A DNA stretch of 64,000 nucleotides from an uncultured Alphaproteobacteria bacterium (GTDB taxonomy: Bacteria > Pseudomonadota > Alphaproteobacteria > HIMB59). The notes beneath the pieces are model-generated. The model had not been told where the DNA came from and made no database searches. It saw nothing but the letters and a program-made list of their open reading frames with translations. Location of the stretch: assembly GCA_902613845.1 (NCBI GenBank), contig CACMIW010000002.1, forward strand, positions 124,001 to 188,000, read 5' to 3'. A program made the translations under genes and the position numbers. Below are positions 1-4,985 of this stretch, piece by piece. The stretch's first letter is position 1. Every line of letters begins with the position of its first letter.

Positions 1-240
1 AAGATTGAGTTTTAAAATGTTACGCCGTAGCCTTTACTTTTATTAAAAAAATTGTGCGAGCGATTGGTTTATTGTAATTATATATGTAATTTTTAAACCC
101 CCTACTCGTCTAATGCCTGTTATTAATGTGCCCCCTCACTTCGACCATAAATGAAGATGAGGGGGAAATATTGACATACTATGCCTTAGGATGTCAGATA
201 ACATTTATATGACACTTATTAACTGTAAAAAAGATAAATC
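1..240. other. Non-coding stretch at window start
   Basis: I see no open reading frame of convincing length or recognisable RNA gene here on either strand. It lies beyond the 3' end of the minus-strand restriction-like cassette. Its only notable structure is the inverted repeat at 131-165. I found no copy of the tRNA-Arg 3' end that would mark an integration site. Confidence 0.6.
131..165. repeat. Imperfect inverted repeat, 12-bp arms with one bulge
   Basis: The arm CCCCCTCACTTC (131-142) pairs with GAAGATGAGGGGG (153-165), leaving one bulged A and a 10-base loop. Five G:C pairs at the base make it strikingly stable for this AT-rich DNA. Neither side has the T-run of an intrinsic terminator. 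It could end or protect the 3' end of the cassette transcript, or be a protein-binding or recombination site; the function is unknown. Confidence 0.6.
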
Positions 241-2721
241 TTAGATTTGAGCGTAAAACTCTTTTCTAGTTATAGTTGTATCAAATAAACCAACATCCTC
301 TTTATCATGTGTGATAATACCAGAGTAAGTTAAACTAGCGTCTTCGATCCTCTTAAACTTAGCTATAGCATCATTCATTCTTGAGTTATTAAAAACATTT
401 AGGTTTTTTAAAAGTCTAAAATCATCAACAGATAAGCCAGTTACTTTTTTAAATAAACCTGGTTCAATTTTTGAAATTACATCCTCTAGTTTCTTCTCAC
501 GGTAATCTGTCAAATACATAAAAATAGGTATTCTTGTTGCAAATTTTATTAACTTTTCTTGGATAATTTTTCTTTTAGATTTTACCTCTTTCTCAGTTTC
601 AGAGAGTTGTTTTTTTTCATTATTATTTAAATCTTCATCATTCGCTTTTGATTTTAGTTTATTAATAGAGTCTGTTTTGTTAATTATTGTTTCAATATCA
701 TTTCTCAAAGAACGAAAACCTTCAATATTCATTAAAGCCTCCATAGCCTTGTCATCAGAAAGTAAACGTTCAAGAGTCATATTATCAACGTTAACAAGCA
801 AAACACTTTCCCACCTTCTAGCCAATAAAGTTGATGTTGTTCCACTGAAAGCTATTTCTAATATTCCTTCAGCGTCAATTTCCTCCATTTTCATTCCATC
901 ATAAGAAAGAACTGGAAGAAAGTTTATGAAATCTCTAACTTTTTTTTCTGGACTAATGTCATCTGTAACAAGTCTACAACTATAATCTGAAATTTGTCTT
1001 AAAGCTCTATCTGGAGCAAAATCAAAAATATAACATTCTTCTTTTAAAATTTCTGACTTTTTAGATTGATCTTCGTTTTTAATCTCCCAAGGTGTCTGAA
1101 CTCTAAATGCGGCTTGAAAATAAGTTTCAGGAGTCGATGAATTTCGTAACATAAATATACCCGTCCAAGGTTTTACAGAAACGCCAGTTATTAATTTCAT
1201 ACAAGATAATGTTATAGTTTTTGATTTAAGTGGGTCATCCATTGCTTCATACACAGGTTTAAGTGCATCAACACCCATACCAGCTTGATTACCAGCAGCT
1301 ACAATTACTTTATACTGCTGATAAAAGTTATTTTGTTTTTCGCCTATTAAGTTTTTCATTGCAAAACACGAGGCAACACTTGGTAAAAACCAAAATGTGT
1401 GTGAAAGAGATTTTAAAAGCCTAGTATCATAAAATGGCAATGGTGGTTTTTTTGAGCCTAATCTTAAATTATCAACTGTAGTTTCTAAGTATGAACCTCT
1501 AATTAAATCCAACCATTTTTGCACCTCATTCTTATGTATGAAAGTAGCTTGTGAGTCATTACCTTTAGCTGAAAAAAATTCATTTAAATTAAATTCGTTA
1601 AACTCACCAGAAACAGCAATATCTTTGATTGAATTAGGGAGTTGATATGTAAGTAGGACCATCCTAGGTAAAGCTAAATAAGGATTATTTTTTCCTTTCC
1701 ATTCAAGTTTAGATTTTTGTTCATCCGAATAAGTCCAATTAAATATTTGTTCTTCAATAAACTCTCCAGACTCCAAAGCTCTAAAAGGAGTTCCTGATAA
1801 ATAAAGATAATGATTAGTTGTTATTGGAAGTATTTTTTCATCAAAATATTCAATTCCCTCTCCTTCAACAAACTTAATTTCTTCTTTTTCTTCTGAGTCG
1901 AATAGTTCCTTAGCACTATCTCTCCAGGCACCATAATGATATTCATCAAATATTACACAATCCCAATTTGTTAAATGAACCCACTCATTTTTTGGTTTAA
2001 TACCGCCAGCTTTATTTTTACCTAAGTAATCTTGGAACGAACCGAAGCATACAAAAGGTTTGTTTTTATCAATATCTTCAAACTTCCTACCTTTTCTAGA
2101 AACAAATTGCCAATCATTGAAATCGATATGTGATAATAAATCCTCTTCCCAGGCACTTTGAACAGCAGGTTTAAAAGTCATTACTAATATTTTTTTCCAT
2201 TTCATCTTTAATGCCAACTGATATGAGGCAAATGTTTTTCCAAATCTCATTTTTGCATTCCATAAAAAATGAGGTGTTGTCTGAGTTTTTTTTAGTGATT
2301 TGAAATAGGAAGATGTAACGTTAACTGCATTTAATTGTTCTGGTCTCATTTTAAAATCTGCTGATCTAATATTTTCAAAAGTTTTATTATGTCTTATTTC
2401 CAAAATAGCATTCTTAACATCACTGACATTACATTCAAACCACTCTCTGGCTTTTTGCTTAAAACCTTTTTTAATTAATAATTTATGAATATCATGATCG
2501 GTAAAAGAGCTGCCATCTACTCTTATAGCTGACTCTATTAAAACAATTGAATATGGTTTTCTTCCAGGTCGTTGCGTCGGATATTGCTCTTTAACTCTTT
2601 CTTTGGCTGAACGAGTTGTAAAACCAATCTTTAGATATCCATTATATTGTGGATTTGTATCTGAGTAAGCATAGATTGTTGGGTTTAAATCTTTTCTAAC
2701 TGGAAAAAATTCTTGTTTCAT
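241..2721 (-). CDS. GIY-YIG (T5orf172-like) nuclease fused to SF2 helicase, putative restriction subunit
   Basis: About 826 residues. Numbered from the upstream ATG at 2751, the N-terminus (about 24-118) resembles the T5orf172/GIY-YIG fold: IYAYS, GYLKIGFTTR, an Arg in ERVKEQ, a conserved HKLL and an acidic EWFE. An SF2 helicase core follows, with motif I NAKMRFGKT (about 165-173), motif II DEYHYG, motif III SGTP and a motif VI-like FRVQTPW. The C-terminal third is charged and partly coiled coil. I chose the ATG at 2721 because it overlaps the upstream methyltransferase stop as TAATG; the ATG at 2751 is the alternative. Being last in an overlapping operon with two methyltransferase-fold genes suggests the ATP-driven, DNA-cutting subunit of a restriction-modification system. 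Motifs are visible; the role is inferred. Confidence 0.75.
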   Translation of the reverse strand: MKQEFFPVRKDLNPTIYAYSDTNPQYNGYLKIGFTTRSAKERVKEQYPTQRPGRKPYSIVLIESAIRVDGSSFTDHDIHKLLIKKGFKQKAREWFECNVSDVKNAILEIRHNKTFENIRSADFKMRPEQLNAVNVTSSYFKSLKKTQTTPHFLWNAKMRFGKTFASYQLALKMKWKKILVMTFKPAVQSAWEEDLLSHIDFNDWQFVSRKGRKFEDIDKNKPFVCFGSFQDYLGKNKAGGIKPKNEWVHLTNWDCVIFDEYHYGAWRDSAKELFDSEEKEEIKFVEGEGIEYFDEKILPITTNHYLYLSGTPFRALESGEFIEEQIFNWTYSDEQKSKLEWKGKNNPYLALPRMVLLTYQLPNSIKDIAVSGEFNEFNLNEFFSAKGNDSQATFIHKNEVQKWLDLIRGSYLETTVDNLRLGSKKPPLPFYDTRLLKSLSHTFWFLPSVASCFAMKNLIGEKQNNFYQQYKVIVAAGNQAGMGVDALKPVYEAMDDPLKSKTITLSCMKLITGVSVKPWTGIFMLRNSSTPETYFQAAFRVQTPWEIKNEDQSKKSEILKEECYIFDFAPDRALRQISDYSCRLVTDDISPEKKVRDFINFLPVLSYDGMKMEEIDAEGILEIAFSGTTSTLLARRWESVLLVNVDNMTLERLLSDDKAMEALMNIEGFRSLRNDIETIINKTDSINKLKSKANDEDLNNNEKKQLSETEKEVKSKRKIIQEKLIKFATRIPIFMYLTDYREKKLEDVISKIEPGLFKKVTGLSVDDFRLLKNLNVFNNSRMNDAIAKFKRIEDASLTYSGIITHDKEDVGLFDTTITRKEFYAQI

Positions 2722-4229
2722 TAAACTATTTTTGAGTCGATATATTCCCATTCAGTTTTGGAAATTTTCCACTCTTTAACTAAAATCTCATCACTAAAAA
2801 CTTTATTATAATTTGAAAGGTTTGGAGCAAAACAAAAGTTTTTTTTTGTAATATCTTGAGAGACAACAGCCTGTAAAATTAAAAATCTTATTATTTTAGT
2901 AAAAATGTAACTTTTAAAATTTAGTAATTCTTTTTGAGTGTGAAATGCTCCAGCTACTATCCAGGATTCAGTGCAACACTCCCCAGGTTTAGCAATCCTT
3001 ACATTGTTTTCGTAATACATTTTTATAGGTTTCGAAAAATCAGTTTGACCAGCTATTGGTGATTTTGGAATAAGAAGTTTCCATTTACCTAATAAAAAAT
3101 TAAAGTCCGTTATATCTCTTTTATCTGCATATTTCATTCCTATCTTTTGAATAAACCAACATGGGATTCCTGATTTTTTTGGGACATAATTCGTAGGTAA
3201 AGAAAAAGGCTTTCTAGATGAAACTAAATCACTTAATGTAGAACCATTATTAATTTGTAATTTTTTAATTTTTTTTACAACTTTTAGAGCATCATTGTCT
3301 CTAATAAAAATTTCAAATTCATTAAGTTTTCTCTCAACTATTACTTCATTATCTTTTGTAATAGTTTTAACTTGGCATTTTCCAGGATTATCTCTATCCC
3401 AAAGGAAGTAACAAATACCTCCAGCTATATCTACACCAGGAAATACATCTGAGCTATTTTTATAATCTGCAATAAATCTAATTCTCTTATCATTTAACAT
3501 TTTATTTCTAAAATCATCTAATCCTTTTCCACCGATAAACCATCTAGATGGTATAATCATGCAAAGATATCTTGGGTTTAACTGTTTAGCTTTTTCAATA
3601 AATAATTGGTAAATAGGAGATGCACTTCTACTATGTCCTCCATCAGATAATTGATAAGGGGGATTACCAACTATTACATCAAATTTCATATTAAATATCT
3701 TACTTGGATCTTCATAATGAATAAACTGATAACCGTAATTTTCAAGTTCAACAGATCTACTATATTCTTTCTGAGAAGCACCACAATAAATGCATTTGTT
3801 AAGTTTAAAAATATGCATTTTAGGTTCATATAAAATGTTACCTTGCTCATTTTTAAAAACATCAGTGATTGAATACTTGCCATTTGCTTTTTTAGAGCAA
3901 TATAGAGACCTTCTCGACATTAGTGAAGTTAGTTCTGTAATGCCAATTCCATAGACCTGGTTGGTTAATATATGATTTACCCTTTTTTGTAAATTTGGGA
4001 TTTCCTTTTCTAATCCCTTAATTAATCTTTTTGTAATTTCTCTCATAAAGACACCAGATTTACAGCTAGGATCTAAAAACTTTAAATTTTTATTTGACCA
4101 AACTTCTTTTGGAAGTTGATCTAAGAGCTCATTGGCAATTTTTGGAGGTGTAAAAACTTCATCACTACTTAAGTTAGCAAGACAGGTTAGAATATCTGGG
4201 TTGAAAGATATATTAAGATTACTGCTCAT
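2721..4229 (-). CDS. N6-adenine DNA methyltransferase, Eco57I-like
   Basis: 502 residues. The SAM-binding motif I is LDPSCKSGVFM (about 52-62), a variant with KSG where CGxG is usual. Motif IV is FDVIVGNPPY, with catalytic NPPY at about 189-192, followed by MIIPSRWF typical of Eco57I/type II-IIG methyltransferases. The C-terminal half would be the target-recognition region. A CxxC pair at about 146-149 and Cys 111 could bind metal. The start overlaps the upstream small methyltransferase-like gene by 11 bases and the stop overlaps the helicase start by one base, so the three are probably translated together. Expected role: protective adenine methylation in the same system. The recognition sequence cannot be read from the gene. 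Confidence 0.8.
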   Translation of the reverse strand: MSSNLNISFNPDILTCLANLSSDEVFTPPKIANELLDQLPKEVWSNKNLKFLDPSCKSGVFMREITKRLIKGLEKEIPNLQKRVNHILTNQVYGIGITELTSLMSRRSLYCSKKANGKYSITDVFKNEQGNILYEPKMHIFKLNKCIYCGASQKEYSRSVELENYGYQFIHYEDPSKIFNMKFDVIVGNPPYQLSDGGHSRSASPIYQLFIEKAKQLNPRYLCMIIPSRWFIGGKGLDDFRNKMLNDKRIRFIADYKNSSDVFPGVDIAGGICYFLWDRDNPGKCQVKTITKDNEVIVERKLNEFEIFIRDNDALKVVKKIKKLQINNGSTLSDLVSSRKPFSLPTNYVPKKSGIPCWFIQKIGMKYADKRDITDFNFLLGKWKLLIPKSPIAGQTDFSKPIKMYYENNVRIAKPGECCTESWIVAGAFHTQKELLNFKSYIFTKIIRFLILQAVVSQDITKKNFCFAPNLSNYNKVFSDEILVKEWKISKTEWEYIDSKIV

Positions 4230-4845
4230 AAATTTTTAGATAGTGACTCACAGGATATTGATTAATTGGCTTAGGTATAATAACTTCATTGCCTAAATCA
4301 GAAAATAAAGATGGCTCATCAAATGGTCGATAGTCAATAAGATCGGTGTACTTGTACTCTGTTCTTTTGACAAAGTTTTCATTTGTAAAACTCCAATCAG
4401 AAAAAACAATTGGATTTTTGCTTGGTAATTCAATTAGATTCAGAGCATCACCCCAAACTAAATTTTTATTTAAAACATACTTTATTGACTTGAAAAAATC
4501 TTTTTCTAATTCTTTTTTGAATTCAGATTTATAGCTATCATTTATTAGATTAAATAAAATTTCACGACAATTTTCAATATTATCCTCTAAGATTTCAATT
4601 CCGTATAGGGAAGTTACTACTAAAAAAAGATTTCTCTTATATGAATCTTCATCTTTTCCGTATTTACTCTTTAAAAGATCAATTTTTTTAATTAAAATAT
4701 TTTTAAGAAAAACTCCATCACCACAAGCTGGTTCCAAAAATTTTGAATCAATTCTATGTAATTCGTCAGATACTAAACCTAACATAGAATTAACTTCCTT
4801 TTCAGGAGTAAAAACCTCACCAAAGTTAATTATTCTTTGTGACAT
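4219..4845 (-). CDS. Short methyltransferase-fold protein lacking NPPY
   Basis: 208 residues. It opens with FGEVFTPEKEV, the same start pattern as the next gene (SDEVFTPPKI), then motif I FLEPACGDGVFL (about 37-48), YGIEI (about 81-85) and WGDAL (about 131-135). Where NPPY is expected there is NPIVFSDWSF (about 144-153), and the protein ends about 55 residues later with no target-recognition domain. It looks like a SAM-binding half without a catalytic loop, perhaps a partner or regulator of the full methyltransferase. A decayed remnant is possible, but the tight coupling argues against that. First gene of the cassette. Confidence 0.65.
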   Translation of the reverse strand: MSQRIINFGEVFTPEKEVNSMLGLVSDELHRIDSKFLEPACGDGVFLKNILIKKIDLLKSKYGKDEDSYKRNLFLVVTSLYGIEILEDNIENCREILFNLINDSYKSEFKKELEKDFFKSIKYVLNKNLVWGDALNLIELPSKNPIVFSDWSFTNENFVKRTEYKYTDLIDYRPFDEPSLFSDLGNEVIIPKPINQYPVSHYLKIYEQ

Positions 4846-4858
4846 AAAACTCTATGTT

Positions 4859-4888
4859 AATATAAATGCTTCCTATGTGCTACCTCAA
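4859..4888 (-). promoter_or_regulatory. Candidate promoter of the restriction-like cassette
   Basis: On the minus strand, TTGAGG (4883-4888) and TATATT (4859-4864) are separated by 18 bases, a fair match to sigma-70 -35 and -10 boxes. The predicted start of transcription is about 7 bases before the ATG at 4845, giving an almost leaderless message. It lies in the only gap between the tRNA-Arg gene and the cassette. Confidence 0.4.
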
Positions 4889-4908
4889 TGAAAAAAGATT
4901 TGAAATTA

Positions 4909-4985
4909 TGGCGCGCTCTGCAGGATTCGAACCTGCGACCCTCTGCTTAGAAGGCAGATGCTCTATCCAGCTGAGCTAAGAGCGC
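4909..4985 (-). tRNA. tRNA-Arg (anticodon TCT)
   Basis: 77 bases including an encoded 3' CCA. The acceptor stem GCGCTCT pairs with AGAGCGC, with discriminator G. The T arm contains GGTTCGAATCC. The anticodon stem CTGC/GCAG encloses the loop CTTCTAA, giving anticodon TCT, which reads AGA/AGG. The restriction-like cassette begins about 60 bases past its 3' end, a common place for islands to insert, although the gene itself is intact. Confidence 0.97.

Follow-up and report, generated by a model that had tools for sequence, protein, structure and literature searches.

A predicted DrdVI-type restriction–modification cassette on a mobile island, with a methyltransferase active site that may be shared by two proteins

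Introduction

Three overlapping genes near one end of a 64,000-nucleotide stretch of DNA from an uncultured alphaproteobacterium of the HIMB59 lineage (hereafter the window) encode two methyltransferase-like proteins, M1 and M2, and a nuclease–helicase protein, R. Which known system, if any, do they belong to, and how is the work divided between two methyltransferase-like proteins, neither of which carries a complete set of motifs? We examined the genes, their relatives and their genomic surroundings.

Organisation and domains of the three genes

All three ORFs lie on the minus strand within positions 241–4845; M1 and M2 overlap by 11 bases, and M2 and R by 31 bases, which confirms the overlapping trio described in an earlier sequence-only reading. 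The first gene of the operon is M1 (4219–4845, minus strand; 208 aa), which corresponds to a SAM-binding half with motifs X, I, II and III and, as that reading had stated, lacks NPPY. M2 (2721–4229, minus strand; 502 aa) is an Eco57I-type methyltransferase with NPPY and a C-terminal target-recognition region, and R (241–2751, minus strand; 836 aa) is a GIY-YIG nuclease fused to an SF2 translocase.

In Pfam, the Eco57I domain was matched in residues 90–263 of M2 (7e-38); nothing was found above the cut-off for M1, for which the best related domain was MmeI_Mtase (0.02). R contains a T5orf172/GIY-YIG nuclease domain in residues 27–119 (2395–2673, minus strand; 7e-13) and a ResIII helicase domain with Walker A and DEYH in residues 133–286 (1894–2355, minus strand; 3e-6). 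We take T5orf172 to be a member of the GIY-YIG superfamily; the NCBI name for the homologues of R is ‘GIY-YIG nuclease family protein’, and R itself has no NCBIfam match. The catalytic-type residues of the nuclease domain (Y27, K41, G43, R52, D85 and E103) do not vary in the 131 rows (of 133) that could be read; the Walker A lysine is kept in 132 of 132 rows, and the D, E and H of DEYH, together with SGTPF, in 133 of 133. These counts are among the matches listed, and the window contributes a row to every motif count in this study. At the level of sequence, the GIY-YIG/helicase fusion of the earlier reading is thus borne out, and its N-terminal domain, for which a different fold would have spoken against that reading, carries both the T5orf172 match and the conserved residues.

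The PADLOC type IIG model PDLC03626 covers R with one part and M2 with the next, as if R and M2 were the two halves of a known fused enzyme. Searches against solved structures gave a single chance-level match for R (0.055) and none for its profile at 0.01; there was none for M2 at 1 or for its profile at 0.01. The M1 profile gave five weak matches, the best of them a type I M subunit (0.002) in the motif I region.

Relationship to named systems

A tblastn search with R returned 79 plasmid and 5 phage records, among them pDrdVI, the plasmid of Deinococcus wulumuqiensis 479 (NZ_CP031164) that carries the DrdVI system. The DrdVI genes M1, M2 and R are found in the same order as in the cassette, with identities of 54% for R, 46% for M2 and 37% for M1, and the motif I of DrdVI M2 has the same lysine as that of the window. 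Unlike the window R, DrdVI's own R has no Pfam T5orf172 match at 0.01; the alignment nevertheless spans the region. In the published work the M1–M2 pair of DrdVI was cloned together, m6A was assigned at GCAGCC by methylome analysis (E. coli ER2796), and the system is labelled type IIG. The C-terminal half of DrdVI M2 belongs to a different clade from that of the window M2, which groups with L018, L059, L101, L012, L062 and L022 (100/100); the DrdVI site is therefore not transferable, and GCAGCC was rejected as the target of the window system. A second named relative is MaeIV of the archaeon Methanococcus aeolicus, with m6A at GCACY and with M1 and M2 cloned together; here the likeness is to the published description, not to the sequence. 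The proposal that the cassette is an unnamed restriction or anti-phage system was rejected, since the trio matches DrdVI by sequence and MaeIV by description; the restriction role proposed along with it is supported, as a putative one, by the DrdVI match.

Fused type IIG enzymes also resemble the cassette (PDLC03626, L014 on an Enterococcus plasmid, and the viral L137–L140, L142, L143 and L145). They contain a helicase and an Eco57I methyltransferase with the lysine motif I and NPPY, as well as a separate M1-like gene where the record shows one, but R and M2 form one polypeptide of ~1,300–1,470 aa, whereas they are separate genes in the window. The L014 enzyme retains GIY-YIG-type residues; Pfam T5orf172 was not found at 0.01 in L014 or L137. 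The OspHL35III type and DnmA–YeeB–YeeC of B. subtilis likewise comprise a methyltransferase, a translocase/helicase and a GIY-YIG/T5orf172 protein, but they have one MmeI-like methyltransferase, and the translocase and the nuclease are separate proteins.

The Type ISP enzyme LlaGI and the Type III enzyme EcoP15I are ATP-dependent and place m6A on one strand of an asymmetric site, as we propose for the cassette; to our knowledge, they have other nuclease folds and no split methyltransferase. Type III systems possess one Mod gene and a Res protein with a C-terminal nuclease, whereas the cassette has two M genes and an N-terminal nuclease domain of the T5orf172 type. No HsdS-like gene of a type I system was found: apart from the trio and an integrase, the island described below has no listed ORF longer than 163 aa. 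Strict type IIG enzymes carry endonuclease and methyltransferase in one polypeptide, and here there are three ORFs. The best scores for BREX-1 PglX (22.5, M2) and MADS MAD2 (15.2, M1) are far below the respective cut-offs of 500 and 720. What was found is adjacent M1, M2 and R homologues in the DrdVI order, with an R that by its sequence fuses a GIY-YIG nuclease to a translocase, and we regard the cassette as almost certainly a DrdVI-type restriction–modification system.

Conserved motifs of M1 and M2

The canonical motif I of M1 is EPACGDG (residues 38–44; 4714–4734, minus strand). Among the matches listed, the pattern EPxxGxG, with both glycines, is present in 108 of 108 readable rows (n=109), motif II has D or E in 109/109, and motif III has D or N in 108/109; the pattern [NDS]PP[YFWH] was found in none of the 109 rows. 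M2 presents the reverse picture. Its catalytic motif IV, NPPY (residues 189–192; 3654–3665, minus strand), is kept in 115/115 rows, while the first glycine of its motif I is replaced by Lys57 (codon at 4059–4061, minus strand), a lysine found in all 113 readable rows of 115. The M2 motif I consensus is DPxxK[STA]G (115 aligned rows, window included), and the position of the motif II acid is occupied by A, G, S or P in 113/113 rows and by an acid in none, again among the matches listed. A motif III could be assigned in M2 only tentatively, and the reading of M2 draws on its other motifs. Two M2 rows with truncated ends (L006 and L064), one gapped M1 row, and fragments shorter than 300 aa (M2) or 120 aa (M1) were left out of the counts. 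Near-copies (e.g. L105, L110 and L111) occur in the locus set; in thinned sets of 66 M2 and 62 M1 rows, Lys57 and the M1 glycines are still invariant.

The N-terminal pseudo-SAM half of M2 (residues 9–178; 3696–4205, minus strand) is homologous to the N-terminal half of M1 (hhalign 97.7%), and the acid of M1 is aligned with a glycine of M2. This half of M2 is not decaying: its mean pairwise identity (0.64) is as high as that of the catalytic half (0.65), compared with 0.36 for the C-terminal target-recognition region (66 rows). It also contains H139, C146, C149 and H171. These four residues, invariant in the 66 rows, may form a metal site; in the larger set, C149 and H171 have one deviating row each.

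From the motif counts and the homology of the N-terminal halves, we read M1 as a probable SAM half lacking the catalytic motif, and M2 as a probable catalytic half lacking a normal SAM pocket. The sequence-only reading had described a full NPPY methyltransferase paired with a catalytically incomplete one. Its NPPY and its two unequal methyltransferase-like proteins stand, but the SAM half of M2 is altered in both motif I and motif II, and both proteins are incomplete, with complementary defects. In the open-access literature we found no description of the complementary M1/M2 motifs; according to a figure legend of PMC10113651, conserved motifs are flagged in the MaeIV genes, and its authors may have noticed the pattern. 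The DrdVI-type kind is already known, and the division of labour within the M1/M2 pair would be what is new in our proposal.

Co-occurrence and gene order

The genome scan for relatives of R kept the best 80 of at least 589 loci, which weights the sample to close relatives, and the viral scan contributed 54 loci. Excluding the window, 132 loci, plasmid and phage loci included, are close (R at least 900 bits), and for 97 of these the upstream sequence of R is 3,000 bases or longer. Among the 97 close loci listed, M2 is present in 94, M1 in 93 and both in 93, which agrees with the expectation of the earlier reading that homologues of the three proteins occur together. Concerning the exceptions, neither M1 nor M2 reached the cut-offs in L093 and L021, of which L021 does carry a fragment of M1, and no M1 was found in L129. 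L004 carries M1 and M2 on the same plasmid as R but parted from it by a transposon; on this plasmid (pCRULAC2 of Corynebacterium crudilactis, L004/L310), a Tn3-family transposon with streptomycin-resistance genes lies between M2 and R.

The order M1–M2–R is found in 108 of the 109 listed loci with one match of each gene, a set that takes in the fused L014 and L138, of which L138 is the exception. The gap from M1 to M2 is at most 100 bases in 101/109 of these loci and that from M2 to R in only 79/109, among the matches listed; M2 and R are therefore often not tightly coupled. On the Pseudosulfitobacter plasmid of L006, genes for a TIR-domain protein and a reverse transcriptase lie near R (L006:4255-6130), possibly a defence unit of the retron type.

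Judged by their record titles, the loci kept (the best 80 of at least 589) span many bacterial phyla, and one short contig is binned as archaeal. Of 398 genomes sampled evenly from the phylum, two have R (E <= 1e-100): the genome of the window and G085. The matches to M1 and M2 (query L233, E <= 1e-20) come from these two genomes as well.

Single-chain viral forms

The ORFs of 149 and 123 sequences, many of them from the same contigs, were compared with the M1 and M2 profiles, and two ORFs on viral contigs match both profiles side by side. The gene of L233 (L233:317-1879) is intact and encodes 520 aa, matching M1 profile positions 3–197 and M2 positions 176–500; that of L225 (L225:3953-5524), with a TTG start, is also intact and encodes 523 aa, matching M1 positions 5–183 and M2 positions 177–501. 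In both proteins M1 passes straight into the ‘MQFDVIIGNPPYQ’ of M2, and the lysine-bearing N-terminal half of M2 is missing. These two chains are the strongest evidence that the SAM half of M1 and the catalytic half of M2 may form one working unit. A third fused case is known from Bibersteinia, whose DrdVI-like genes are fragmented and inactive.

The M1 end points in L225 and L233 are several residues apart. Both proteins fall inside the trio family in the trees of the C-terminal half and of M1, and they form one group in 0/200 bootstrap trees for either region. In the M1 tree, whose bootstrap had not converged, the well-supported branches alone allow a single origin of L225 and L233, and the C-half tree could be misled by recombination of target-recognition regions. 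R was looked for on the two contigs, which may be fragments, and was not found.

No further single-chain form was seen in the 398 phylum genomes, where both matching genomes have separate M1 and M2. The viral scan with L233 returned only its own contig and missed L225, a sign of its low sensitivity. Among the matches listed in the plasmid and phage searches, the near-full-length one-piece rows checked (L010, L012 and L309) are M2 or fused R–M2 proteins; that check covered the rows other than H47, H55, H57 and H68. Many short M1-like SAM-half proteins of about 135–270 aa, several of them near-copies, are encoded on the viral contigs L238–L270; for most of them, the 4 kb examined contain no separate match to the M2 profile.

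Distant relatives

Eight fused R–M2 proteins (L014, L137–L140, L142, L143 and L145) retain both the lysine and NPPY, and the M1-like partners of L137, L138, L139, L140, L143, L145 and L146 have, as judged by eye, a motif I of the CGE or AGE type and the motif II acid. In a distant viral group (L136, L144, L147 and L148), M2 has the canonical glycine motif I; the lysine state therefore characterises the DrdVI lineage and its fused relatives but does not extend to every helicase/M2/M1 set. A short M1-like gene is also present in L147 and L148, so M1 can coexist with a complete-looking M2; no such gene was seen in L136, and the L144 record stops within M2.

The island and its integration site

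The cassette is adjacent to a tRNA-Arg(tct) gene (4909–4985, minus strand; ARAGORN), the integration site of an 8.4-kb island (G000:C2:120519-128953, which corresponds to L302:8519-12240 and window positions 1–4953). The right end of the island is a 45-bp attachment repeat (4909–4953), which is the last 45 bases of the tRNA; its exact duplicate lies outside the window at G000:C2:120519-120563, and the copies are 8,390 bp apart. The island encodes a tyrosine integrase (370 aa; PF00589, 3e-32) and, beside the trio, an excisionase-like HTH_17 protein and a replication-initiator-like HTH_36 protein. It contains three small ORFs, of 163 and 90 aa, both without a Pfam or PHROG match, and of 78 aa.

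In 29 loci of the same genus (L273–L301), the tRNA-Arg(tct) gene is retained together with the right flank. Similarity stops within 8 bp of the tRNA 3' end (window position 4909) in 28 of them, while in L284 a weaker similarity continues for about another 50 bp; no match to the island was found in any of the 29 over the up to 1.36 kb compared on that side. A 50-bp stretch of the left flank, about 9.9 kb from the tRNA in the genome of the window, is located 10 to 467 bp from it in 8/29 (10 to 87 bp in L273, L276, L286 and L290), and these eight are near-empty sites. R was absent from all 59 relatives searched, 36 of them of the same genus; many of these genomes are incomplete, and 17 of the 59 reach a completeness of 90% or more with contamination of 5% or less. 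Based on the island, the near-empty sites and this absence, the cassette was probably brought in recently by a small integrative element; the island itself is likely an integrative element or a phage satellite.

Between the island and the flank common to the eight relatives there is a further stretch of ~1.5 kb (L302:7051-8518), which carries a 6-phosphogluconate/3-hydroxyisobutyrate dehydrogenase-like gene (342 aa); the tRNA site may therefore be a repeated insertion spot.

Proposed mechanism and alternatives

We consider it highly probable that the cassette is an ATP-dependent DrdVI-type restriction–modification system on a mobile island, in which M1 and M2 jointly build the methyltransferase active site. 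The pair would act as a single adenine methyltransferase and methylate one strand of an asymmetric site. M1, as the only protein to bind SAM, would bring the SAM-binding half; the catalytic NPPY half would come from M2, as would the target-recognition domain, and the active site would be completed in trans. On meeting an unmethylated site, the complex would recruit R, which would hydrolyse ATP, move along the DNA and cut it with its GIY-YIG domain. The support comes from gene content, gene order, homology, motif complementarity, conservation, the two single-chain fusions and the island. Against it count the group with a glycine M2 and M1, the conserved N-terminal half of M2, to which this reading gives no role, the often loose coupling of M2 and R, the missing T5orf172 match in DrdVI's own R and in the fused L014 and L137, and the fact that there are only two single chains, of putative activity, beside the inactive Bibersteinia case. 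For the shared active site taken by itself, our judgement is that it is likely.

The main alternative concerns M2, which might be a complete methyltransferase with Lys57 tolerated or contacting SAM, M1 being its structural or allosteric partner; METTL14, the partner of METTL3, is a model for such a role. This would fit the retained NPPY, the conservation of the homologous N-terminal half and the distant group with its canonical motif I, two of whose four members have an adjoining short M1-like gene. However, the motif II acid is missing in every M2 row listed (113/113), M1 retains the SAM-half motifs, and the two single chains keep M1's half and dispense with the N-terminal half of M2; we therefore find this alternative unlikely. 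Even less is to be said for two methyltransferases, one per DNA strand, as in ordinary asymmetric type II systems. The presence of two genes and their REBASE-style names M1 and M2 suggest it, but an NPPY-like motif is found in 0/109 listed M1 rows and the published DrdVI site has an adenine on one strand only. We rejected two full enzymes on the missing NPPY of M1, and the arrangement as a whole is extremely improbable.

The cassette could also be a decayed remnant that has lost restriction. The fragmented Bibersteinia genes offer a precedent, as does dnmA–yeeB–yeeC of B. subtilis, for which the authors saw no restriction or antiphage effect; in contrast, the window has three intact overlapping ORFs with the invariant motifs kept, and decay is very unlikely here. 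A more speculative extension of the shared active site is that the catalytic half of M2 can pair with either of two rival SAM halves: with M1 docked, the DNA would be methylated, and with the pseudo-half of M2 docked (Lys57 in the SAM pocket), R would act. Such a swap, which we hold to be doubtful though less so than decay, would explain why the pseudo-half is conserved in the trios and absent from the two single-chain viral enzymes, on whose recovered contigs no R was found.

Implications

The mechanism of DrdVI-type systems is barely described in the open-access literature searched, and the family is widespread, with at least 589 encoding stretches in the genome scan. If its active site is shared by two proteins, the family would offer a naturally split methyltransferase whose output is easy to read, and the question would arise of how a pseudo-cofactor half decides whether DNA is marked or cut; if the SAM halves do swap, the exchange would serve as an inbuilt switch between modification and cleavage. 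The single-chain viral forms would be ready-made test enzymes, and possibly anti-restriction methyltransferases.
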